From a virus: a stretch of 29,925 nucleotides of DNA. Where the stretch lies: the IMG/VR virus record IMGVR_UViG_3300037010_000335, positions 1-29,925 of that record, one strand, 5' to 3'. The notes beneath the pieces were generated by a model that was not told where the DNA came from, ran no database searches, and saw only the letters and a list, made by a program, of their open reading frames with translations. The translations under genes and the position numbers were made by a program. Of this stretch, positions 3,401 to 15,802 are shown one piece after another; position 1 is the stretch's first letter, and the number at the start of each line of letters is the position of its first letter.

Positions 3401-3469
3401 ATTCAACCTCATATAGCGGGATGTATTTTTGGAGCCGGTGCTGACTGCCACGGTAGCTGAAACAATAGC

Positions 3470-3517: not shown

Positions 3518-3534
3518 GCATGACTTCTCTACCA

Positions 3535-3933
3535 CTAAGCCTGAATTGCTTTATCGGTAGTTTCCCACTTCCCTGTTAATCTGATTTGCATCCTGACCAG
3601 CCCGATGCACTTTGACGCAGCACAATGGGCACGCTCATAAAATGTATCTCGACAAATTCCCATGTCCGCTGCGATAGCTTTGATTGGTTTAATCTTAATC
3701 TCACAGTAGATGACAACGAATGGAACAAACTCGCCTACATCGAGGCTTGATACGGCAAGATTAAATGCATTGAGTTCTGCGGACATAGGGCCATTAGGTT
3801 CTCTACCAGTCTTGCTTGGCATGAATTGAGCCAGAATATTTCGCTGTAAAGGTGGGCCAAGAAACCTGCGACTATCGAGCCATTTAACCCATTCCTGGGC
3901 CATCTGATAAGCGGCCTCGTTACGATGCGCCAT
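3535..3933 (-). CDS. Q-like late transcription regulator (HTH)
   Basis: The 132-residue protein has an N-terminal WVKWLDSRRFLG segment, a middle helix ELNAFNLAVSSLD, and a C-terminal helix-turn-helix IKAIAADMGICRDTFYERAHC (about 84-104). This order resembles phage antiterminator Q / sigma-region-4-like late regulators. Its place at the end of the early leftward operon, after the nin genes and before terminase, matches where lambdoid phages keep Q. It overlaps the upstream 64-aa gene by 14 bases and has an AAAGGGA SD. Whether it acts as an antiterminator or an activator is not shown by the sequence. Confidence 0.55.
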   Translation of the reverse strand: MAHRNEAAYQMAQEWVKWLDSRRFLGPPLQRNILAQFMPSKTGREPNGPMSAELNAFNLAVSSLDVGEFVPFVVIYCEIKIKPIKAIAADMGICRDTFYERAHCAASKCIGLVRMQIRLTGKWETTDKAIQA

Positions 3934-7076: not shown

Positions 7077-7543
7077 ACATACCCCAGCGTGGTGAATCCC
7101 TGACCCGGTCGGTGTCCTGGTTTCTGGCCGCCTTTGCCACTGTGCTTCATAGCATAGCGGACGTGGTTCGGAGCGATCACCAGAACGTCTGGAACCTCCT
7201 CTTTTGGTTCGATGCAATACGGCTTTCGCTTTCTCTGTCTGTTCTTCATCGTCTCGCGAGTTAGGCCTAGTTGACCTGCCATCTTCTTAATGCTCTGACG
7301 GCTTCTCTTCAATTTTTCTGCGGTAATTTGCAGGGGATATTGGGCATACATCTTGATCAAGGTCTGTTTATCCTTACTTGACCAAGCGGTAGGAGTCCGC
7401 TTGCATACCTTATGCAGATCAAGTATGTGCTTCACCGAGTGGTGAGAGCAGCCCAGGATTTCTGCGATCTGAAATCGGCTCTTCGTTTTGTAGAGCTCGG
7501 TGGCCTGGGCAATGAGATCGGTCGTCCAGAATTTACGGCTCAT
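7073..7543 (-). CDS. DNA-binding protein with two HTH-like segments
   Basis: The 156-residue basic protein has an N-terminal helix-turn-helix RFQIAEILGCSHHSVKHIL (about 23-41) and a second one LQITAEKLKRSRQSIKKMAG (about 71-90), then a basic stretch KNRQRKRKPYC. It overlaps the Cro-like gene by 11 bases and sits in the position of lambda cII. It may regulate the early operon or assist replication, but the sequence does not decide this. Confidence 0.65.
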   Translation of the reverse strand: MSRKFWTTDLIAQATELYKTKSRFQIAEILGCSHHSVKHILDLHKVCKRTPTAWSSKDKQTLIKMYAQYPLQITAEKLKRSRQSIKKMAGQLGLTRETMKNRQRKRKPYCIEPKEEVPDVLVIAPNHVRYAMKHSGKGGQKPGHRPGQGFTTLGYV

Positions 7544-7727
7544 TGCTGAGCCCCTTTACTTTTTCGCATGCGGAATTCAAAGACTGCATCGTATCCCAAC
7601 TGGGTGATGTCTTACGGTTGATTATCCGCCATATTGTTGCCTGGCTGATTCCTGATGTCATGGCTAGCGTCGGCCATACGCCTTTTCTTGACTCTAGCCG
7701 TTCGATTAGTTTATCGAGTTCGTTCAC
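7533..7727 (-). CDS. Cro-like HTH repressor
   Basis: The 64-residue protein has a helix-turn-helix WPTLAMTSGISQATIWRIIN (about 18-37), the fold of Cro and YdaS-type repressors. It starts with GTG at 7727 with only a weak SD, about 30 bases after a predicted transcription start. It is the first gene of the leftward early operon and faces a divergent control region with palindromes, as Cro does in lambda. No opposing CI gene is present. Confidence 0.7.
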   Translation of the reverse strand: MNELDKLIERLESRKGVWPTLAMTSGISQATIWRIINRKTSPSWDTMQSLNSACEKVKGLSNEP

Positions 7728-7744
7728 TTTGTTCTATCCATTTA

Positions 7745-7756
7745 GTCAATGTTGAC
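7745..7756. promoter_or_regulatory. Palindrome GTCAA-TG-TTGAC, possible operator
   Basis: Five-base perfect arms flank a two-base centre. It lies at the predicted start of the leftward transcript, between the -10 box and the GTG of the Cro-like gene. A repressor bound here would block initiation. Confidence 0.45.
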
Positions 7757-7762
7757 GCCCAC

Positions 7763-7791
7763 ACAATACGCCTAAATTATTTTCCGTGCAA
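7763..7791 (-). promoter_or_regulatory. Leftward early promoter (sigma-70 type)
   Basis: On the minus strand TTGCAC (7791-7786) is followed by a 17-base spacer and TATTGT (7768-7763). Transcription would start near 7756 and enter the Cro-like gene after about 29 bases. The -35 box is half of a larger palindrome. Confidence 0.55.
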
Positions 7792-7808
7792 ACATAATTG
7801 TGCTTGCA
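7787..7808. promoter_or_regulatory. 22-bp imperfect palindrome, candidate shared operator
   Basis: Outer arms TGCAA and TTGCA are perfect and the centre AATT is self-complementary. Only two pairs in the 22 bp fail. It covers most of the -35 boxes of both divergent promoters, so one protein, for example the Cro-like product, could control both early operons. Confidence 0.55.
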
Positions 7809-7833
7809 TTTACGATATAGGTATGGAATGATG
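7804..7833 (+). promoter_or_regulatory. Rightward early promoter (weak match)
   Basis: TTGCAT (7804-7809) is followed by an 18-base spacer and AATGAT (7828-7833). The match to consensus is weaker than for the leftward promoter, but the -35 mirrors it across the shared palindrome. The leader before the first gene would be about 95 bases. Confidence 0.4.
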
Positions 7834-7841
7834 CCTACACA

Positions 7842-7857
7842 CTCTGAGCAATCAGAG
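7842..7857. other. Hairpin with GCAA tetraloop in the rightward leader
   Basis: CTCTGA and TCAGAG pair perfectly around GCAA, a GNRA-type loop. It lies in the untranslated leader of the rightward operon, where lambda has its nut site. A boxA-like element is not obvious, so an antitermination role is only a possibility. Confidence 0.4.
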
Positions 7858-7933
7858 ACACATCGGCAAAGCAAGTAAGCAATCTGGTCAGAACATATTT
7901 TTCAGTAGCATTGCCGGCCCGGAGATCCACATA

Positions 7934-8539
7934 GTGGAGAGAAAATTGGATACAAGAAAGAAGAAGACAGCAATTATTGAGGCAGAAGGCGAAGCGGTGA
8001 CGGCGTTGGTCGGACACGCCGTTGACCGGGTAATTAGAGGAATGGACGGGGCCGTCGAGCAGCCCATTACAGCCGACCGGTCAACGGCCATGAACACGGA
8101 GGAATACTCAGAGGCCAAGAACACGGGCTACAAATCGGTGGCCATGAACATGGGGGACGGTTCTGAATCTACGAACACGGGAGAACAATCGGTTGCCATG
8201 AACACTGGCTACCATTCAGTGGCACTGAACGCGGGTTACCGTTCGACGGCCATAAACACTGGGGAATACTCACAGGCCAAGAATGAGGGAGGGCAGTCGG
8301 TTGCCATGAACACTGGAGACTACTCGGTGGCCGAGGTGAAGGGCACTGGGTCGGTTGCGGCATCCATTGGCACCCAAGGTCGCGCCTGCGCTGCCGTTGG
8401 CTGCGCAATCGTCCTCTGCTACCGAGACGAGAACAACGGCCGTCTGATCCATATCAGCTCAAGCAAAGTAGGAGAAAACGGAGTCAAGCCTGACACCTGG
8501 TACGTTCTCGACGCCGATGGAACATTTGTAGAGGTGTGA
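7934..8539 (+). CDS. 9-residue-repeat protein (probable beta-solenoid)
   Basis: The GTG at 7934 has GGAG nine bases upstream. After a charged N-terminus (1-49), residues 50-148 form eleven units of nine residues of the type S-V-A-M-N-T-G-Y-x, for example SVAMNTGYH and SVALNAGYR. This should fold as a beta-solenoid. The C-terminal domain (about 149-201) contains CAIVLCYRDENNGRLIHISS and KPDTWYVLDADG. Proteins of this build occur in phages and bacteria without known function. It is the first gene of the rightward early operon. Confidence 0.7.
   Translation: MERKLDTRKKKTAIIEAEGEAVTALVGHAVDRVIRGMDGAVEQPITADRSTAMNTEEYSEAKNTGYKSVAMNMGDGSESTNTGEQSVAMNTGYHSVALNAGYRSTAINTGEYSQAKNEGGQSVAMNTGDYSVAEVKGTGSVAASIGTQGRACAAVGCAIVLCYRDENNGRLIHISSSKVGENGVKPDTWYVLDADGTFVEV
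8081..8377 (+). repeat. Coding 27-bp degenerate tandem repeats (11 units)
   Basis: The DNA repeats with a 27-bp period matching the nine-residue protein units, with recurrent words such as GCCATGAACAC. The units have diverged at third positions, so this is a protein-level repeat and not a CRISPR. Confidence 0.8.
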
Positions 8540-9181: not shown

Positions 9182-10030
9182 ATGAGTAACGAGATAGCCG
9201 TAGTAAACGAACAACGGGCACTTACAGCCGGAGAAATCCGGGCTCATGTAAACCGCGTCCAAGAAGTGATGAAGGCCGTTATGCAGCGAGAAACGCACTA
9301 TGGCGTTATCCCTGGAAGCAAGAAGCCAAGCCTGTATAAGCCGGGTGCTGAGGTTCTTTGTGTGACCTTCCGAGTAGCCCCTAGCTACAGGATAGAAGAA
9401 CTTTCAACGGATGATAGCGTGCGTTACCGGATCACCTGCGTAGGAACCCATCAGACAACAGGCGTGGTGCTCGGCGAAGGCGTTGGCGAATGCTCGTCAA
9501 ACGAGGAAAAATACAAGTGGCGTCGGGCCATCTGCCAGGAAGAATACGACGACACTCCTGCTGATCGAAAGCGCATCAAATACGGGAAATACCAGGGCAA
9601 AGTAGAGAGGACCCAACAACTGCGCACCGAGCCAGCAGACATTGCCAATACCGTGCTTAAGATGGCCGTCAAACGCGCCCAGGTCGCCATGACGCTGAAT
9701 GTCACCGCCGCCTCTGACTGCTTCACCCAGGATATTGAAGACCTTCCGCCCGAGTTGCTGGAGATCGAGCGCAACCGGGAACAGGGCGGAAAACCTCCAG
9801 AAGAAAAGCCGCCCTACCCTGCCGCCGAATTTGAAAAGAACATCGAAGTATGGAGAAAGGCCATCATGGACGGACGCGCATCAGCAGAACAAATAATCGC
9901 CCGGTCGTCCACCAAGTACATGCTATCTGATGAGCAGAAATCCGCCATCATATCCCCCATTGAAAAAGCACCGGAAGCCGCGCCGATTAATGGCGAATGG
10001 GTTGCCGATTTTGCAGGAGCAGAACAATGA
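9182..10030 (+). CDS. Putative single-strand annealing protein
   Basis: The 282-residue protein has the conserved segments AVMQRETHYGVIPGSKKPSL, RYRITCVGTHQTTGVVLGEG, VGECSSNEEKYKWRR and DIANTVLKMAVKRAQVAMTL followed by NVTAASDCFTQDIEDLP. These mark a widespread phage family found next to YqaJ-type exonucleases, suggesting an annealing partner like Red beta or Erf. The pairing is visible here: its stop overlaps the exonuclease start (ATGA). The biochemical role is inferred from context, not shown by a catalytic motif. Confidence 0.6.
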   Translation: MSNEIAVVNEQRALTAGEIRAHVNRVQEVMKAVMQRETHYGVIPGSKKPSLYKPGAEVLCVTFRVAPSYRIEELSTDDSVRYRITCVGTHQTTGVVLGEGVGECSSNEEKYKWRRAICQEEYDDTPADRKRIKYGKYQGKVERTQQLRTEPADIANTVLKMAVKRAQVAMTLNVTAASDCFTQDIEDLPPELLEIERNREQGGKPPEEKPPYPAAEFEKNIEVWRKAIMDGRASAEQIIARSSTKYMLSDEQKSAIISPIEKAPEAAPINGEWVADFAGAEQ

Positions 10031-11541
10031 TCGAAATCGAAGAAGCCCAAGGAAGCGAAGCATGGCTCGCCCACCGTGCCAAGTGCCTGAATGCCAGCGA
10101 AGCACCGGCCATGATGGGCGTCAACCCGCACAGGAGCCGCGCCGATCTTCTAAAAGAGAAGTCTACCGGGATTGCGCCTGAGATTGATGCCGAGACCCAG
10201 GCTAGGTTCGACCGTGGCCTTAAAGAAGAAGAAATGGCCAGGCCTATAGCAGAGCGAATCATTGGTGAAGAACTGTTCCAGATTGTCGCAACTGATGACA
10301 CCGGCAAGTATTCCGCCAGCGCGGATGGCTCGACGATGTTCTGTGAAATCGGATTCGAACATAAATCATGGAACGACTCGCTGGCTGAAAAGGTAGCAAC
10401 CGGCCACGTTCCCGAGTCTCACAAATGGCAGCTTGTGCATCAGCAGATGGTTTTCGGATTCGATAAGGTACTTTTCATGGTGTCCAATGGAACTGAAGAA
10501 AAGATGGTTTATTGCTGGTTTAAGGCAACCGATGAAGAAATTAAGCGACTGATTTCCGGTTGGGATCAATTCGAGGCCGACCTGGAAGAATACCAGTACG
10601 TCGAAACCAAGCCCGAGGCAATCGGCCGCGCACCGGATCAACTGCCGTCCCTGCACATCGAAGTAACTGGCATGGTCACTGCCTCGAACCTGGACGAGTT
10701 CAAGGGAACCGCGCTGGCCGTGTTCCGTGGCATCAAAACCGACCTGAAGACCGACCAAGATTTCGCCGACGCCGAGAAGGCCATCAAGTTTTGCAAGGAC
10801 GCTGAGGAACGGCTGGAATCTGCAAAGTCCCACGCGCTGAGCCAGACCGAGAGCATTGATGAGCTTTTCCGCACCATCGACTCCATCAAGGAAGAGGCCC
10901 GGACGGTGCGCCTCAAGCTGGACAAGCTGGTCAAGGTTGAGAAGGACAACCGAAAGTCCGAGATCATCACGATGGCCCACGCCAAATATCGTGCCCACGT
11001 TGACGCACTCAACAAGCGGATCGGCGGCCAGTGGATGCCGACCATCGTTCCGGCCTTTGCCGAGTCCATAAAGGGACTCAAAAGCCTGGACAGCATGATC
11101 GACAGGATCATAACCACGCTAGCCAATGCCAAGATAGATGCGAACGAAACAGCCATGCGCATCTCCTACAATAAGAGCGCAGTCGGCGAGGATATGGCGC
11201 TGTTCCCGGACTGGCTGAATGTCTGCACCAAGTCAGAGGAGGACTTCGCCGCCATGCTATCCATGCGCCTCAACCAGCGCAAAGAGGCCGAAGAAAAACG
11301 ACTTGCGGAAAGGCGTGCCGTGAAAGATGCGATGACGGAAGTTATGCCGCGAGACATACAGCCTGTGAGCGTGGAAACGCCGACCAATGCTATTCAGCAG
11401 GGGATTAACCAGCAGCAGAAGCCGAACCAGTGGACTGTTATCGACCCGCAAGACCGGACGCACAAGGGAACATTGGAGCAGATGACTCAGCTCTTGGTGC
11501 AACAGCGCCAGCTCGAAAACACAGTTAAGCAGGAGTATTGA
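10027..11541 (+). CDS. YqaJ-type exonuclease with C-terminal coiled-coil domain
   Basis: The start at 10027 is chosen for its ATGA overlap with the annealing-protein gene, although the frame is open to 9997. The N-terminal nuclease domain has GSEAWLAHRAKCLNASEAPA (about 9-28), a probable active-site segment CEIGFEHKSW with E-x-K, and KWQLVHQQM. From about residue 225 a long helical region (AEKAIKFCKDAEERLESAK) resembles the DUF1351-type domain often fused to phage recombination nucleases. It probably makes 3' overhangs for the annealing protein. Confidence 0.8.
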   Translation: MIEIEEAQGSEAWLAHRAKCLNASEAPAMMGVNPHRSRADLLKEKSTGIAPEIDAETQARFDRGLKEEEMARPIAERIIGEELFQIVATDDTGKYSASADGSTMFCEIGFEHKSWNDSLAEKVATGHVPESHKWQLVHQQMVFGFDKVLFMVSNGTEEKMVYCWFKATDEEIKRLISGWDQFEADLEEYQYVETKPEAIGRAPDQLPSLHIEVTGMVTASNLDEFKGTALAVFRGIKTDLKTDQDFADAEKAIKFCKDAEERLESAKSHALSQTESIDELFRTIDSIKEEARTVRLKLDKLVKVEKDNRKSEIITMAHAKYRAHVDALNKRIGGQWMPTIVPAFAESIKGLKSLDSMIDRIITTLANAKIDANETAMRISYNKSAVGEDMALFPDWLNVCTKSEEDFAAMLSMRLNQRKEAEEKRLAERRAVKDAMTEVMPRDIQPVSVETPTNAIQQGINQQQKPNQWTVIDPQDRTHKGTLEQMTQLLVQQRQLENTVKQEY

Positions 11542-11542
11542 G

Positions 11543-11773
11543 ATGGATATTGTTGATCGAATTTATGCTGTTCGTGAGGATGGCTCGGACCCCGACTTAA
11601 TATACGAAGCTGCGGAAGAGATATTCCGACTGCGCGATGCCATCCGCCAGACACTCGACTCAAACTGGCACATGGCGGACGGCGATGTCTGTGCTCTGAT
11701 GGTGCTCAAAGTCGCTCTACGCGAGTCTGGCGTACCGTGGCATGGCGAAGTGTTAGCAGGAAAACGTAAATAG
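11543..11773 (+). CDS. Conserved small phage protein, 76 aa
   Basis: The product starts MDIVDRIYAVREDGSDPDLI and continues YEAAEEIFRLRDAIRQ, a pattern shared by many short phage proteins with an AA-x-EI-x-RLR segment. The ATG is one base after the exonuclease stop. It ends just before an elaborate nested stem-loop. Function unknown. Confidence 0.65.
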   Translation: MDIVDRIYAVREDGSDPDLIYEAAEEIFRLRDAIRQTLDSNWHMADGDVCALMVLKVALRESGVPWHGEVLAGKRK

Positions 11774-11774
11774 G

Positions 11775-11848: not shown

Positions 11849-12532
11849 GTGAAAAAACTCCGAGTGCTTATCGCCTGTGAATACAGCGGAAGGGTGCGCC
11901 GCGCCTTTGCCCAAATGGGGCACGATGTGCTATCGGCTGACTTTGAACCGGCCGAGGACGGCAGTCCATATCACTATCAGGGCGATTGCTTTGATCTGAT
12001 AAATGACCAACCATTCGATCTTATGATCGCGCATCCGCCATGTACTTATTTGAGCGTGAGCGGAATGCATTGGACGAAGCGCGGACTGCGTGACCCGAAA
12101 CTAACAGAAGACGCCTTGGCGTTCGTGCAACGGCTGATGGATGCACCGATAGCCAAAATAGCCATTGAGAACCCGGTGAGCGTGATTTCTAGCAGGATTA
12201 GAAAACCTGACCAGATTGTGCACCCATACATGTTCGGAGATAACGCGAGTAAGAAAACATGCCTTTGGATTAAGGGTTTGCCGCCGTTGAGGCCGACGAA
12301 CTTTGTAGAGCCGCGCTTGGTGTGCTGCGGTTCCGAAGTGCCGAACGCCGATAAGTACGCCTGCCCGAACTGTAATGGCGACAAGGTGGCGCGACCACGG
12401 TGGGGCAACCAGTGCGATAGCGGTCAGAACAAACTAGGACCTAGAAATGACCGCTGGAAGGAGCGGAGCCGCACATACCAAGGCATTGCAACCGCAATGG
12501 CGGAACAGTGGGGGAAAGCCAACAACGCCTAG
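11849..12532 (+). CDS. DNA cytosine-5 methyltransferase-like protein
   Basis: Starting at a GTG after GAAAGG, the 227-residue protein has an N-terminal Rossmann segment LRVLIACEYSGRVRRAFAQM, the catalytic-type motif HPPCTYL (62-68) and ENP (107-109), the PC and ENV motifs of C5-methylases. A Cys cluster (CC at 159-160, CPNC 172-175) may bind zinc. It is shorter than classical enzymes and lacks an obvious large target-recognition domain, as in a known phage subfamily. It may protect phage DNA from restriction. Confidence 0.75.
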   Translation: MKKLRVLIACEYSGRVRRAFAQMGHDVLSADFEPAEDGSPYHYQGDCFDLINDQPFDLMIAHPPCTYLSVSGMHWTKRGLRDPKLTEDALAFVQRLMDAPIAKIAIENPVSVISSRIRKPDQIVHPYMFGDNASKKTCLWIKGLPPLRPTNFVEPRLVCCGSEVPNADKYACPNCNGDKVARPRWGNQCDSGQNKLGPRNDRWKERSRTYQGIATAMAEQWGKANNA

Positions 12533-12596
12533 CTAACCGGAGCAGTCTGATTTATCTACTACGTACATGTTGAGAGAAATATTATAGGATGGTGTA

Positions 12597-12812
12597 ATGA
12601 TGATTGAGAAACTGAAGTGGACCGATGTAACCAAGAAGCTTCCGGACGATGCCGGTACGGTGTTGCTTTGGGTACGAGCCGCGAGGCCGTTTTCTAACCC
12701 AGGATGGATGACTGGTTATTTCGACGAGGGCGAATGGCACGATAGCGAAACTGGGTACGCGGTGCATAGCATCGTCACGCACTGGGCGGAACCGAATGGC
12801 CCTGGTATCTAA
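12597..12812 (+). CDS. DUF551-like small protein
   Basis: The 71 residues contain KWTDVTKKLPDDAGTVLLWV and end with VHSIVTHWAEPNGPGI, the W-x-x-V-x-x-x-LPDD...HW-x-P pattern of DUF551 proteins common in phages. Start is at 12597 or the adjacent ATG at 12600. The stop TAA lies inside the first attC-like site, so the gene and site form a cassette-like unit. Function unknown. Confidence 0.7.
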   Translation: MMIEKLKWTDVTKKLPDDAGTVLLWVRAARPFSNPGWMTGYFDEGEWHDSETGYAVHSIVTHWAEPNGPGI

Positions 12813-12862
12813 CGCTTTAATTCAGGTGCGCGAAGCCATCCCGCTGGATTGACGGGTTATGT
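12807..12862 (+). other. attC-like site 1 (after DUF551-like gene)
   Basis: The left box ATCTAAC (12807-12813) fits the R'' consensus RYYYAAC. The right box is GTTATGT (12856-12862). Inner arms AATTCAG and CTGGATT pair with one G-T. Closer to the loop CGAAG, GTG pairs with CA(T)C leaving T12839 unpaired. The order matches integron attC sites (R'', spacer, L'', loop, L', spacer, R'). It points the same way as the gene. Confidence 0.6.
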
Positions 12863-12880
12863 TTTGTTTTGCGAAAGTGA

Positions 12881-12909
12881 TTGACACATGATTGGTTATG
12901 CAATACATT
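12881..12909 (+). promoter_or_regulatory. Sigma-70 promoter before the 73-aa gene
   Basis: TTGACA (12881-12886, perfect -35) is followed by a 17-base spacer and TACATT (12904-12909). It lies just after the first attC-like site and about 50 bases before the ATG at 12958. The 73-aa gene and those after it therefore seem to have their own promoter besides early read-through. Confidence 0.6.
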
Positions 12910-12957
12910 ATTAATCACGCAAGGCGCGGTGCCGAGCAGAAGCCTTAAGGAGAGATC

Positions 12958-13179
12958 ATGAACAATGTCAACCATGTCGAAGAGTCAAGGAAATACCCCA
13001 ACTTCTCGCAAGGGTACGAGGCGATTGGTGCCTCGGCCCAAGACGAGGCCGATCTTATCGCGGCTGGACGTCGCAAGTGCGACGATGGAAAATGGTACGC
13101 GAATGGGTATGGCCCCGTTCGAGGGGGATGGGGGTACTACGGAAACAACGGGGTTGGATACGGTCCGGTCTACCGATGA
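12958..13179 (+). CDS. Hypothetical Gly/Tyr-rich protein, 73 aa
   Basis: An AAGGAGAG SD precedes the ATG at a good distance. The N-terminus is polar (MNNVNHVEESRKYPNFSQGY). The C-terminus is rich in Gly, Tyr and Trp (GYGPVRGGWGYYGNNGVGYG). No domain is recognised. It is transcribed from its own promoter, and its stop overlaps the start of the next gene. Confidence 0.6.
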   Translation: MNNVNHVEESRKYPNFSQGYEAIGASAQDEADLIAAGRRKCDDGKWYANGYGPVRGGWGYYGNNGVGYGPVYR

Positions 13180-13388
13180 CCGGGCCGAAACGTCCAGCGC
13201 ACCGACCGGCGCAATACCCAGGCGAGTCAATGGCAACATTAACGGTTCGCCTTCCGGTGCGACTTAAAGAAAAGGTGGTGCGCATCAGCAATGGGCGCAC
13301 CGGTAAATGGGTTTGCGAGCGGATCGAGAAGGCCCGTGAACCTAACGCAGAGCTAATGGTAGCGAGTGAAAACGCAACAACGAAGTGA
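13176..13388 (+). CDS. Small ribbon-helix-helix-like protein
   Basis: The start at 13176 overlaps the previous stop as ATGA. A second ATG at 13230 would give 52 residues beginning MATLTVRLPVRLKEKVVRIS. That segment has the beta-strand plus helix pattern of ribbon-helix-helix DNA-binding proteins (TLTVRLP, then two helices). It could repress its own promoter at 12881. The last codons run into an attC-like site. Confidence 0.55.
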   Translation: MTGPKRPAHRPAQYPGESMATLTVRLPVRLKEKVVRISNGRTGKWVCERIEKAREPNAELMVASENATTK

Positions 13389-13429
13389 GTTGGATGTTCG
13401 AGCGTCCCACATTGAGCGCCTTGTTATGC
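13340..13429 (+). other. attC-like site 2 (after RHH-like gene)
   Basis: The left box ACCTAAC (13340-13346) fits RYYYAAC and lies inside the end of the RHH-like gene. The right box is GTTATGC (13423-13429). GCTAATG pairs with CATTGAGC leaving one unpaired G, the same extra G seen in classical attC L' arms. At 90 bases it is longer than the others, with a weakly structured centre. Confidence 0.5.
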
Positions 13430-13451
13430 GTCGAATTTTAAGGAAAGAAAT

Positions 13452-14075
13452 ATGTCCATTTCATCCCCAGCGACACGTCGTAAACGGGTCCTAGAGAGCT
13501 TCAAAACGGCCGCCGACTGCATCGGCACGATTGAGCCAGGCGCCGCTATTTTTGCGATAACACGCGGGCAGTTTTCCATGATCGACGCGACGCTGGCTTG
13601 CCTTGACCAGTGCGGACCGTCTGATATTTCTATATGGACTTGGACCGTTGCCGAGTATGAAATAGAGTGCATGGAGCGGCTGCGCAACGATGGGCGCGTG
13701 AAAAATGCTACGCTTGTAATTGACTATGGCGCTCGCGTAAAAAATTCCACGCTTATTTCGCGCTGGAAAGACACATTCGGTCAGAAGTCGGTTCGATATG
13801 TGGTGAATCACGCCAAAATTGTCACAATTTGCAGCAATAAATTTAGGTTACTGCTGCGCGGATCCATGAATCTTAACTTCAATCCTCGGTTTGAGCAATT
13901 CGATCTTACGGAGGGCGGCGAGGATTACGACCTCGTAAAAAAAATAGAGGGCGATTTGCCGATATTGGGCGATTCCGCGAGTGGCATGGAGATATACAGA
14001 GCTAGCCGAGTGTCAGAGGCGTTTGAGCCGGAGCAGTTATCATTTTTTACCGGAGTAAAGATATGGGCAAAATAA
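13452..14075 (+). CDS. Phospholipase D-like (HKD-type) phage protein
   Basis: The 207-residue protein has one HKD-like half-site: H120-A-K122 followed by RGSMNLN at 136-142, as in the PLD pattern H-x-K...G-S-x-N. Upstream are GAAIFAITRGQFSMIDATLA and SIWTWTVAEYEI. PLD-fold proteins include nucleases that act as dimers when only one motif is present. The Asp usually following HxK is not evident. It overlaps the next gene by 13 bases. The role (nuclease, packaging or defence) is unknown. Confidence 0.6.
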   Translation: MSISSPATRRKRVLESFKTAADCIGTIEPGAAIFAITRGQFSMIDATLACLDQCGPSDISIWTWTVAEYEIECMERLRNDGRVKNATLVIDYGARVKNSTLISRWKDTFGQKSVRYVVNHAKIVTICSNKFRLLLRGSMNLNFNPRFEQFDLTEGGEDYDLVKKIEGDLPILGDSASGMEIYRASRVSEAFEPEQLSFFTGVKIWAK

Positions 14076-14344
14076 TTGATATTGCGGCAGAGATTCAGCG
14101 CGATAACCCGCACGCCAGGCTGATTGACGTACATGTTTTTGCGGATGCCTTGCGAATTTACCATGAGGCCGCGGCAAATGTGGCGGCGAACGGTGCGATT
14201 TGCTCGCATCCACGCACGGGAGCTCCAATTGAAAACCCATATCTTAAAATACAGGCCCAACAAGGGATAATACTTGGCCGCATGAAAACTATAAAAAGCG
14301 ACCGAGTGATGGACCTTCTGGATAAGTCCGGTGGCGCGGAGTGA
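14063..14344 (+). CDS. P27-type terminase-small-subunit-like protein
   Basis: The 93 residues contain RIYHEAAANVAANGAICSHP and RTGAPIENPYLKIQAQQGII, resembling the P27 small-subunit pattern Y-x-x-A...G...NP...K. The protein lies far from TerL and next to the PLD-like gene, so it may be a DNA-recognition partner of that protein and not the packaging subunit. The ATG at 14063 lies within the end of the PLD-like gene. Confidence 0.55.
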   Translation: MGKIIDIAAEIQRDNPHARLIDVHVFADALRIYHEAAANVAANGAICSHPRTGAPIENPYLKIQAQQGIILGRMKTIKSDRVMDLLDKSGGAE

Positions 14345-14345
14345 T

Positions 14346-14825
14346 ATGCCATACCTAAACGAAGATGGGACGATAGACACATGGAAAGGATACATACGCA
14401 AATGCGACCACTGCGGAGCTATAGAAAAGGTATTTGATAAGGCCACAGACCAACTCGTAGGACGACATGACGAAATATTCTCATTAGAAAATACGATACG
14501 CAAATTGTTCAATGGGACGCGCGGACCGGGGTTGCCAAAAGTTTTGTGCGTTGAGTGCATGACGAGGATGATGCCAAACCTGCACAAGCTGAGGGATGCA
14601 ATTGAACTAGATATTTTCGTAAATAGACTGAAAGGTGCAATAAATGAAAAACGAAAGCAAGGAACTAAAGACCACCGGACAACTGCGGACGATGCTTGCG
14701 AATGCTGCGAAAGGTGTTCTAAACGGAGACTTAGACATCGAGCGTGCAACGGCGCTGCACAAGCTGGCGAAGAACATCAGCGAGAGCCTGTACAGCGAAA
14801 CCAAAATAGCAATGTTCAACCATGA
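14346..14825 (+). CDS. Zinc-ribbon protein with long C-terminal overlap
   Basis: The ATG at 14346 begins MPYLNEDGTIDTWKGYIRKC, one base after the previous stop. A GTG at 14331 is an alternative. CDHC (about 20-23) and CVEC (about 70-73) form a probable zinc ribbon. After residue about 100 the frame overlaps the 79-aa gene for 182 bases. That tail is Cys/Arg-rich (ACECCERCSKRR) and looks unlike a domain, so it may be an out-of-frame extension. Function unknown. Confidence 0.5.
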   Translation: MPYLNEDGTIDTWKGYIRKCDHCGAIEKVFDKATDQLVGRHDEIFSLENTIRKLFNGTRGPGLPKVLCVECMTRMMPNLHKLRDAIELDIFVNRLKGAINEKRKQGTKDHRTTADDACECCERCSKRRLRHRACNGAAQAGEEHQREPVQRNQNSNVQP

Positions 14826-14883
14826 GATCGGCAGCGCCATTCCGAAGATGGGAGACCTACCGCTTGGCGGAAGCGATGCATAA
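14644..14883 (+). CDS. Conserved small phage protein, 79 aa
   Basis: The product has KTTGQLRTMLANAAKGVLNG, then DIERATALHKLAKNISESLY and SETKIAMFNHE, a pattern of short helical phage proteins common in early regions. AAAGG precedes the ATG by eight bases. It overlaps the zinc-ribbon gene in another frame. Its stop TAA lies inside the third attC-like site. Function unknown. Confidence 0.7.
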   Translation: MKNESKELKTTGQLRTMLANAAKGVLNGDLDIERATALHKLAKNISESLYSETKIAMFNHEIGSAIPKMGDLPLGGSDA

Positions 14884-14943
14884 CGCCATAGATCAGAGGC
14901 GCGAGCCGCAGGCTAAGCGTCCCACTGGAGCGGATGGTTAGAA
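14878..14943 (+). other. attC-like site 3 (after 79-aa gene)
   Basis: Boxes GCATAAC (14878-14884) and GTTAGAA (14937-14943) flank an imperfect hairpin. AGCC/GGCT pairs around GCA. CGC pairs with GCG. GG pairs with CC leaving T14920 unpaired, and CAG pairs with CTG followed by an extra G. The unpaired T and G are where classical attC sites have theirs. The next gene starts in or just after the right box. Confidence 0.6.
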
Positions 14944-15257
14944 AGATGTTGAAGCTAGAGAGAGTGCGGAGGGTTAAAAGTGGGCAAGCCTACATAGCAG
15001 AGAGATGTCTAAGTAAGCGTGGGGAATACCCAAGCACAGATCATGTCGCTGTTTTTGTCGAGTGGTGCATTGATGCCGAAAGGAGAAGGAAAATGTGCAT
15101 TGTGATGAAAGGATCAGAACCAGTGAAACCAGAGCCTATAGCCGGGTCAGGATGGATTTTTTGGCGCGAGGTCGATCCTTCTAACGACGCCTTAACCGGT
15201 GCCGAAGGCGTCAAAGTTGAAGGCACAGTTATGCAACAGAAGGACTTATATGGCTGA
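14934..15257 (+). CDS. Hypothetical protein, 107 aa
   Basis: The frame starts at ATG 14934, inside the attC-like site, or at ATG 14946 just after it. The later start fits a cassette layout. The product is basic at the N-terminus and contains SGQAYIAERCLSKRGEYPST and GSGWIFWREVDPSNDALTG. No domain is recognised. Its end encodes part of the fourth attC-like site and overlaps the next gene by eight bases. Confidence 0.5.
   Translation: MVRKMLKLERVRRVKSGQAYIAERCLSKRGEYPSTDHVAVFVEWCIDAERRRKMCIVMKGSEPVKPEPIAGSGWIFWREVDPSNDALTGAEGVKVEGTVMQQKDLYG
15179..15234 (+). other. attC-like site 4 (inside end of 107-aa gene)
   Basis: Boxes TTCTAAC (15179-15185) and GTTATGC (15228-15234) flank GCCTTAAC (15189-15196) and GTTGAAGGC (15216-15224), which pair perfectly except for an unpaired G15219. 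Three-base spacers separate boxes and arms on both sides. A GCC-GAA-GGC hairpin forms the loop. This is the cleanest of the four. Confidence 0.6.
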
Positions 15258-15465
15258 CATTACGATGTGTACCCAGACACTTTGCCCGAACTCAGGGCGC
15301 TGCTATCGAGTGCAGGCGAAGGCTAGCGACTGGCAAAGCATGGCGACGTTCCACTACACGGTATCTGCGCATGGCATTGAGTGTGCCAACTACATTCCAA
15401 TGTACCGAACAGTGGCATCAGACTCTACAGTGTATAACGCAGGATATACACCAAGTGACCAGTAA
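15250..15465 (+). CDS. Conserved Cys-containing small phage protein
   Basis: The 71-residue product starts MADITMCTQTLCPNSGRCYR and contains VQAKASDWQSMATFHYTVSA, ending in an acidic tail. C-x4-C-x5-C and a later C-x-NYIPMY suggest a metal site. Similar short proteins with TMC-x4-CP-x-x-x-x-C occur in phage early regions. The ATG at 15250 is inside the end of the previous gene. Function unknown. Confidence 0.65.
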   Translation: MADITMCTQTLCPNSGRCYRVQAKASDWQSMATFHYTVSAHGIECANYIPMYRTVASDSTVYNAGYTPSDQ

Positions 15466-15802
15466 TACCTTAATGCAAGCAAAGATACTCCGCATGTTTT
15501 CAGGTGTTGAGTTTTCCGCCGTTCTGGAAAAGTCGCCTGCTATTTTTCCCCCGAGTTTTCCAGCCGCTCCCAGCCTAGCTTGGAAAGTGCTTTCCTCACG
15601 TCTTCAAAATCGCCGAATATTCCGGACATAGCCGTGAAACATGGCACTCGAACGTTAACGACCTGAACGACGGGATTTTCGCGCTATCCGGTAAGTAACA
15701 GAACCAACCAGGATTTGCCCCGTTTCTGGATAGAATGCATAGTGTATTCATCGCAACGTCTCCACAAAACGCATGGACACATCCGGGTGTCATGCGGGCA
15801 GT
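15466..15802. other. Convergent intergenic region with GGAAAA/TTTTCC cluster
   Basis: This 337-bp stretch separates the ends of the rightward early and leftward late operons. Within 15512-15595 there are six TTTTCC-type motifs in alternating orientation. They include the pair 15512-15517/15526-15531, a hairpin GGAAAG-TG-CTTTCC (15582-15595), and GAGTTTTCC twice. A 65-codon minus-strand frame (15596-15793) lacks features of a real gene. No clear rightward terminator is visible. Confidence 0.4.
15766..15795 (-). terminator. Probable terminator after the lysis genes
   Basis: On the minus strand GCATGACAC pairs with GTGTCATGC-type sequence (one bulged base) around CCGGAT, followed by G and four T residues. 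It begins eight bases after the holin stop, a natural end for the late operon. The short T tract makes it a weak terminator. Confidence 0.5.

Follow-up and report, generated by a model that had tools for sequence, protein, structure and literature searches.

The viral record IMGVR_UViG_3300037010_000335, a linear stretch of 29,925 nucleotides (positions 1 to 29,925; hereafter, the window), contains four sites in one orientation that are real attCs by sequence and structure, interspersed with small genes at the end of an early operon. It is very probable that this region is a short array of mobile gene cassettes, a cluster of attC sites lacking an integron integrase (CALIN), on which an integrase would act in trans. 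Among related phages the genes vary as units, the ends of shared segments gather at the cut point predicted for the sites, and some cassettes recur on another backbone and at two loci.

The attC array

The minus strand of the window encodes the portal, large terminase, major head protein and lysis genes, while the plus-strand early block ends with a RecE-like exonuclease (9997-11541) followed by a small open reading frame (ORF) at 11543-11773. The array lies in the 3.7 kb of small plus-strand genes between this ORF and the convergent lysis genes. INPHARED, a collection of known phage records, holds no close relative of this phage.

The original prediction placed four attC-like sites at gene ends, and their boxes were re-located at exactly the positions given, with left TAAC boxes at 12810-12813, 13343-13346, 14881-14884 and 15182-15185 and right GTTA boxes at 12856-12859, 13423-13426, 14937-14940 and 15228-15231. 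The complementary outer boxes of an attC (R'' and R', YYYAAC ... GTTRRRY) are thus represented by TAAC and GTTA at all four sites. The inner arms are TTAATTCAG/CTGGATTGA in site 1, GCTAATG/CATT[G]AGC in site 2, TCAG/CTG[G]A in site 3 and GCCTTAAC/GTT[G]AAGGC in site 4, and they show the L''/L' feature of an unpaired G in one arm on the bottom strand. The unpaired 3'-arm residue that had been claimed for every site is clear as an extra G in sites 2 to 4, but site 1 shows a T.G wobble there. As predicted, every site is located at the 3' end of a gene, but the RHH-like ORF (13077-13388) and another of 107 aa (14934-15257) extend into a site or across it. A fifth, decayed site, attC0, is added here to the four that were confirmed. 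The matches below are to R1, the covariance model described in the next section, and the slash in AA/C marks the predicted crossover.

12520-12571, minus strand (canonical orientation): attC0, decayed; aligned with positions 2672-2733 of the related contig L182; crossover AA/C at 12525/12526
12807-12862, minus strand: attC1; R1 24.4 bits, E-value 2.8e-4; crossover AA/C at 12812/12813
13340-13429, minus strand: attC2; R1 31.0 bits, E-value 6e-6; crossover AA/C at 13345/13346
14878-14943, minus strand: attC3; R1 37.9 bits, E-value 1e-7; crossover AA/C at 14883/14884
15179-15234, minus strand: attC4; R1 17.7 bits, E-value 0.014; crossover AA/C at 15184/15185

In the window attC0 itself has no R1 match; homology of its region to L182 begins at 12524, and the better-preserved form in that relative (2671-2740) is matched at 16.3 bits. 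In addition, mini-sites of the form TAACG(2-5)GTTA, resembling hairpin-deleted attCs, occur at gene ends at L083 4321 and at L182 2369, 4809 and 7403; these four come from arrays totalling about 28 kb, where the frequency in other phages would predict about one.

Detection by a bacterial attC model

R1 was trained only on 40 chromosomal-integron attCs of Methylococcales (methane-oxidising bacteria), most of them located by a structural scan adjoining intI. Its stems are backed by covariation, with 90% of cells paired and 95 double-change cells against 33 in shuffles. When the whole window was searched with filters off, the four named sites took ranks 1 to 4, all on the plus strand (14877-14944, 13339-13430, 12806-12863 and 15178-15235), and the fifth-ranked match reached 10.5 bits (E-value 0.96). 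In 727 kb of other, distantly related phage loci found via terminase, R1 gave no match at E<=10, so that the check by covariance model yields matches above background at all four sites. An Rfam scan of the window found no match, and we know of no attC family in Rfam.

As a positive control, Tetrasphaera phage TJE1 gave three R1 matches of 31.6-36.3 bits. According to Qi et al. (2023, PMC9892861), TJE1 carries three attCs, two of which were included in their IntI1 assay; of the six phage sites assayed there, five were functional. Long attC arrays also appear in many other IMG/VR contigs (L195-L226), with 127 model matches at E<=0.1 in 548 kb; their phage nature rests on the IMG/VR label, and one Terminase_6N family search matched few of them.

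The hairpins might instead be ordinary intergenic elements, such as terminators, RNA processing sites or late-gene linkers, which merely resemble attCs. They do sit between co-directional genes and site 4 folds significantly; however, a model learned from bacterial attCs picks out precisely these sites while finding none in other phages, and in relatives whole cassettes have been gained and lost at the canonical cut, which makes this explanation highly improbable.

Strand, cut point and cassette layout

The bottom strand of an attC is distinguished by an additional G in its 3' arm, and its left box is cleaved between the A and the C (2009, PMC2727003). In the window the unpaired G lies in the right arm of the plus strand, which identifies this strand as the bottom one and places the cut at TAA/C of the left box. 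The gene-coding strand is therefore the recombinogenic one, and the expected cut is AA/C of the left box rather than GTT of the right box.

This arrangement is inverted with respect to bacterial integrons. In 15 of the 15 Methylococcales integrons examined the R1 strand is the intI strand, and their cassette genes lie opposite to it far more often than on it (51:9, with 11 unclear), whereas the cassette genes of the window lie on the R1 strand, so that the usual, though not obligatory, agreement in orientation between gene and attC is absent. Other attC-rich viral contigs share the tendency (48 genes on the R1 strand versus 19, 20 unclear; p about 1e-10 versus Methylococcales). TJE1, in contrast, has genes on the plus strand and R1 matches on the minus strand, the canonical mutual orientation. 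Strand assignment from the longest ORF is noisy (12:3:10 for this lineage), and the genes were confirmed by codon-position substitutions instead. In most plus-strand ORFs, substitutions between relatives concentrate at third codon positions (10/5/34 over the three positions in the PLD-like gene, 4/0/20 in the P27-like gene and 2/1/21 in the 73-aa gene), which supports these ORFs as genes; the RHH-like and zinc-ribbon-like frames show no clear third-position excess. With gene and attC in opposite orientations, the gene's own stop codon in many cases supplies the core box (TAA/C), and the hairpin precedes the gene with which it moves.

Cutting at AA/C divides the region as follows:

11849-12532, plus strand: DNA methyltransferase gene at the left array end, possibly a cassette; phrog_757, E-value 1e-65
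12526-12812, plus strand: cassette 1, attC0 and a DUF551 gene (12597-12812); PF04448
12813-13345, plus strand: cassette 2, attC1, a 73-aa gene (12958-13179) and the RHH-like ORF, which enters attC2
13346-14337, plus strand: cassette 3a, attC2, a PLD-like endonuclease (13452-14075; phrog_16945, E-value 9e-34) and a P27/Terminase_4-like ORF (14063-14344; PF05119 match weak, below cut-off)
14338-14883, plus strand: cassette 3b, a zinc-ribbon-like ORF (about 14346-14825) and a 79-aa ORF (14644-14883)
14884-15184, plus strand: cassette 4, attC3 and the 107-aa ORF
15185-15437, plus strand: probable cassette 5, delimited by boxes and the shared array end, with attC4 and a small ORF (start about 15251, stop 15465) that enters the array end
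15438-15469, strand not assigned: common array end GCAGGATATACACCAAGTGACCAGTAA, the attI-proximal end in canonical orientation

Of the units originally proposed, the third, from the PLD-like to the 79-aa gene, comprises two cassettes joined at 14337/14338, a point at which relatives carry an attC. Cassette 3b is fused to 3a and has lost its own attC; an attC stands directly ahead of the 3b unit in the relatives G007 and G011, and L083 and G006 lack the unit. The common array end stands behind different last genes in L083, G006 and G011 as well, and in shortened form in the second locus of L008. It is a candidate attI-like entry site, although comparison with regions upstream of Methylococcales intI gave no significant similarity. 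The motif (GCAGG)ATATACACCAAGTGACCAGTAA marks this end at L083 4810, L186 14091, L182 10428 and L008 9367, one of the phages concerned having a different backbone.

Gain, loss and reordering among relatives

Relatives are contigs of the same metagenome series, among them L082/L083, G006 (L121/L186) and G007 (L122/L189), which share a backbone at about 85-98%. The flanks near 11774 and 15435-15650 are conserved, but the contents of the array between them vary. The methyltransferase gene is missing from the corresponding place in G006 and G007. The PLD and P27 unit is present only in the window, L083 and G006 (13343-14337 in the comparison with the latter), being absent from G007, while the zinc-ribbon and 79-aa unit is present only in the window, G007 and G011. 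Cassette 4 also occurs in L083, there behind another upstream gene. The DUF551 cassette is found in G007 and G011 beside other neighbours, and it stands first in the array of the window and last in that of G007. G011 (69 kb), whose backbone is different, shares the methyltransferase, DUF551, 73-aa plus RHH-like and zinc-ribbon units at 88-94%, the 73-aa plus RHH-like unit over 12804-13356 at 88%. The unit-wise presence and absence expected of cassettes is therefore found, together with changes of order, and the units have the makeup of gene cassettes, a gene with its attC between two core cut points, gained or lost as a whole.

The segments homologous between five arrays have 32 ends in all, whose positions were compared with 5000 random draws. 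Twelve of the 32 lie within 5 bp of an AA/C left-box point, against a random mean of 0.75 and maximum of 6. Breakpoints had been predicted at GTT of the right boxes; only one of the 32 falls within 5 bp of G/TT, which is the chance level (random mean 0.75). Individual boundaries lie at 12804 for attC1 (versus G011), at 13343 (versus G006) and 13356 (versus G011) for attC2, and at 14877, 14885 and 14886 for attC3 (versus three relatives). Left-edge breakpoints were at first taken as evidence for homologous recombination, a reading that was abandoned when the strand analysis identified this edge as the canonical integrase point.

The sites themselves accompany the gene that follows them, as the strand analysis predicts. 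Where two arrays share the gene downstream of an attC but not the one upstream, the attCs have a mean identity of 0.77 (n=10), compared with 0.585 (n=15) where only the upstream gene is shared and 0.575 for unrelated pairs (p about 0.001). Independent viral contigs point in the same direction with few pairs (0.765, n=6, versus 0.58, n=2). A cassette therefore consists of an attC and the gene after it, which corrects the original prediction.

A further explanation is that the attCs are genuine by descent and that shuffling now proceeds by homologous recombination, with the short shared attC as a linker. The RecE-like exonuclease adjoins the array, the attCs have short conserved blocks in common, some boundaries lie mid-attC, and sites 1, 2 and 4 fold poorly, all as this explanation would have it. 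It predicts, however, crossovers throughout the attC and chiefly in its long conserved right half (GTCCCGCTGGATTGACGGGTTA), whereas the boundaries cluster at AA/C and not at the right box, and the attCs remain with their downstream genes. We regard it as unlikely, since breakpoints at AA/C and the movement of attCs with downstream genes argue for an integron integrase rather than mere homologous exchange.

A second cassette locus

Relatives also carry cassettes at another place, which is empty in the window:

3519-3578, minus strand: second cassette locus, filled in L003, L005/L004, L006 and L008

This locus follows a 132-aa ORF (3535-3933, minus strand), and cassettes are absent from it in the window, L002 and L007. 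The occupied spans are 228-1047 in L003, 101-910 in L005, 2927-3745 in L006 and 8434-9365 in L008, and they hold attCs and cassettes that include two N6/N4 methyltransferases and an unassigned 269-aa ORF, among others. A close relative of attC4 is found at the second locus of L006. One cassette of this locus in L006 (3297-3659) also occurs in the G011 array (L182 7459-7821); the protein encoded in L006 matches solved Thoeris anti-defense 1 structures in the PDB (E-value 1e-18), and the cassette encodes a Tad1/Acb2-type (anti-Thoeris/anti-CBASS) sponge homologue, present at two loci in two phages. Separately, the close relative L002 has an insertion (about 1380-2124) near window position 3415-3437, without attC boundaries, and the window encodes at 7934-8539 a repetitive protein with degenerate AMNTG.(Y/E).S.(V/A) repeats, which has a relative at L182 14640-15450.

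Possible source of the integrase and of the cassettes

No integrase is seen among the ORFs of the window, as originally noted, so the region is not a complete integron; it is a CALIN, with four to five attCs in 2.7 kb and no intI nearby. The proposed mechanism relies on an integron integrase provided in trans, most probably from the host. While infection proceeds, this enzyme would cut out and insert cassettes by way of folded single-stranded plus-strand (bottom-strand) attCs, and phages would thereby exchange small accessory genes such as methyltransferases, nucleases and the Tad1/Acb2-type sponge. The exchange is presumed to be still going on. A 50-nt attC is identical in several viral contigs and in two Methylococcaceae metagenome-assembled genomes, both of which carry IntI over the family cut-off, and IntI is carried by 85 of the 151 Methylococcales genomes searched. 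Given this shared attC and the presence of IntI, methane oxidisers may plausibly be the host or have supplied the cassettes. A 9.2-kb contig labelled viral (G174; 3300035336_000037) carries a full IntI (7224-8168, 475 bits) as well as attCs.

Several points weigh against exchange by an integrase in trans. A TIGR02249 search of 17 related records found no integron integrase, and the host is unproven: terminase matches in Methylococcales reach 46% at best, and the PLD gene was not found in Methylococcales genomes. The 32 boundaries are not all independent. Some of them lie inside attCs or elsewhere, and 3a and 3b were not joined by a clean cassette exchange, so recombination of other kinds is at work too. 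At sites 1, 2 and 4 the attC fold is weak (-3.9 to -6.6 kcal/mol) and differs from the minimum-energy structure, so that these sites may be poor or decayed substrates; TJE1 sites fold at -10 to -18 kcal/mol, and in the window only sites 3 and 4 have folds below -9 kcal/mol. In the comparison with shuffled sequence site 4 beats the shuffles but sites 1 to 3 do no better than they, and thermodynamic folding alone proved not decisive as an attC detector. Weak folding and the fusion at 14337 together point to decay in part of this array.

Relation to known systems and meaning

CALINs in phage genomes have already been reported, TJE1 among them (Qi et al. 2023, PMC9892861), and they resemble the window in having several attCs, no integrase, and small genes and DNA methyltransferases between sites. 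Qi et al. tested IntI1 activity, and the text consulted contains no comparison of cassette content between close relatives, whereas the present arrays document natural cassette turnover, breakpoints at the cut point and a second locus. The sedentary chromosomal integrons of Methylococcales have the same attC sequence type as the phage, but they possess intI, attI and genes in attC orientation, while the phage has no intI and no proven attI. Insertion of cassettes by IntI at non-attI (attG) sites may explain entry into a phage without attI. In the open-licence literature, preprints excluded, our searches met with no account of cassettes being shuffled naturally among related phages, nor of genes being systematically inverted with respect to attC.

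Related phages in which gain, loss and reordering of cassettes are visible, with breakpoints at the cut point, fill a gap in the phage-integron literature, so far as it was consulted. With them it can be tested whether viruses exchange genes by borrowing the integron integrase of the host, including genes for counter-defence (methyltransferases and, in relatives, the sponge), and what the reason is for the opposite orientation of genes and attCs. More tentatively, and with the odds somewhat against it, phages of this group may share a cassette pool of their own, with genes inverted such that the coding strand is recombinogenic, and would swap counter-defence genes during infection, by means of the host integrase, at fixed loci at operon ends. 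If so, the arrays would do for phages what the integron does for bacteria, with no need of an integrase gene in the phage itself.

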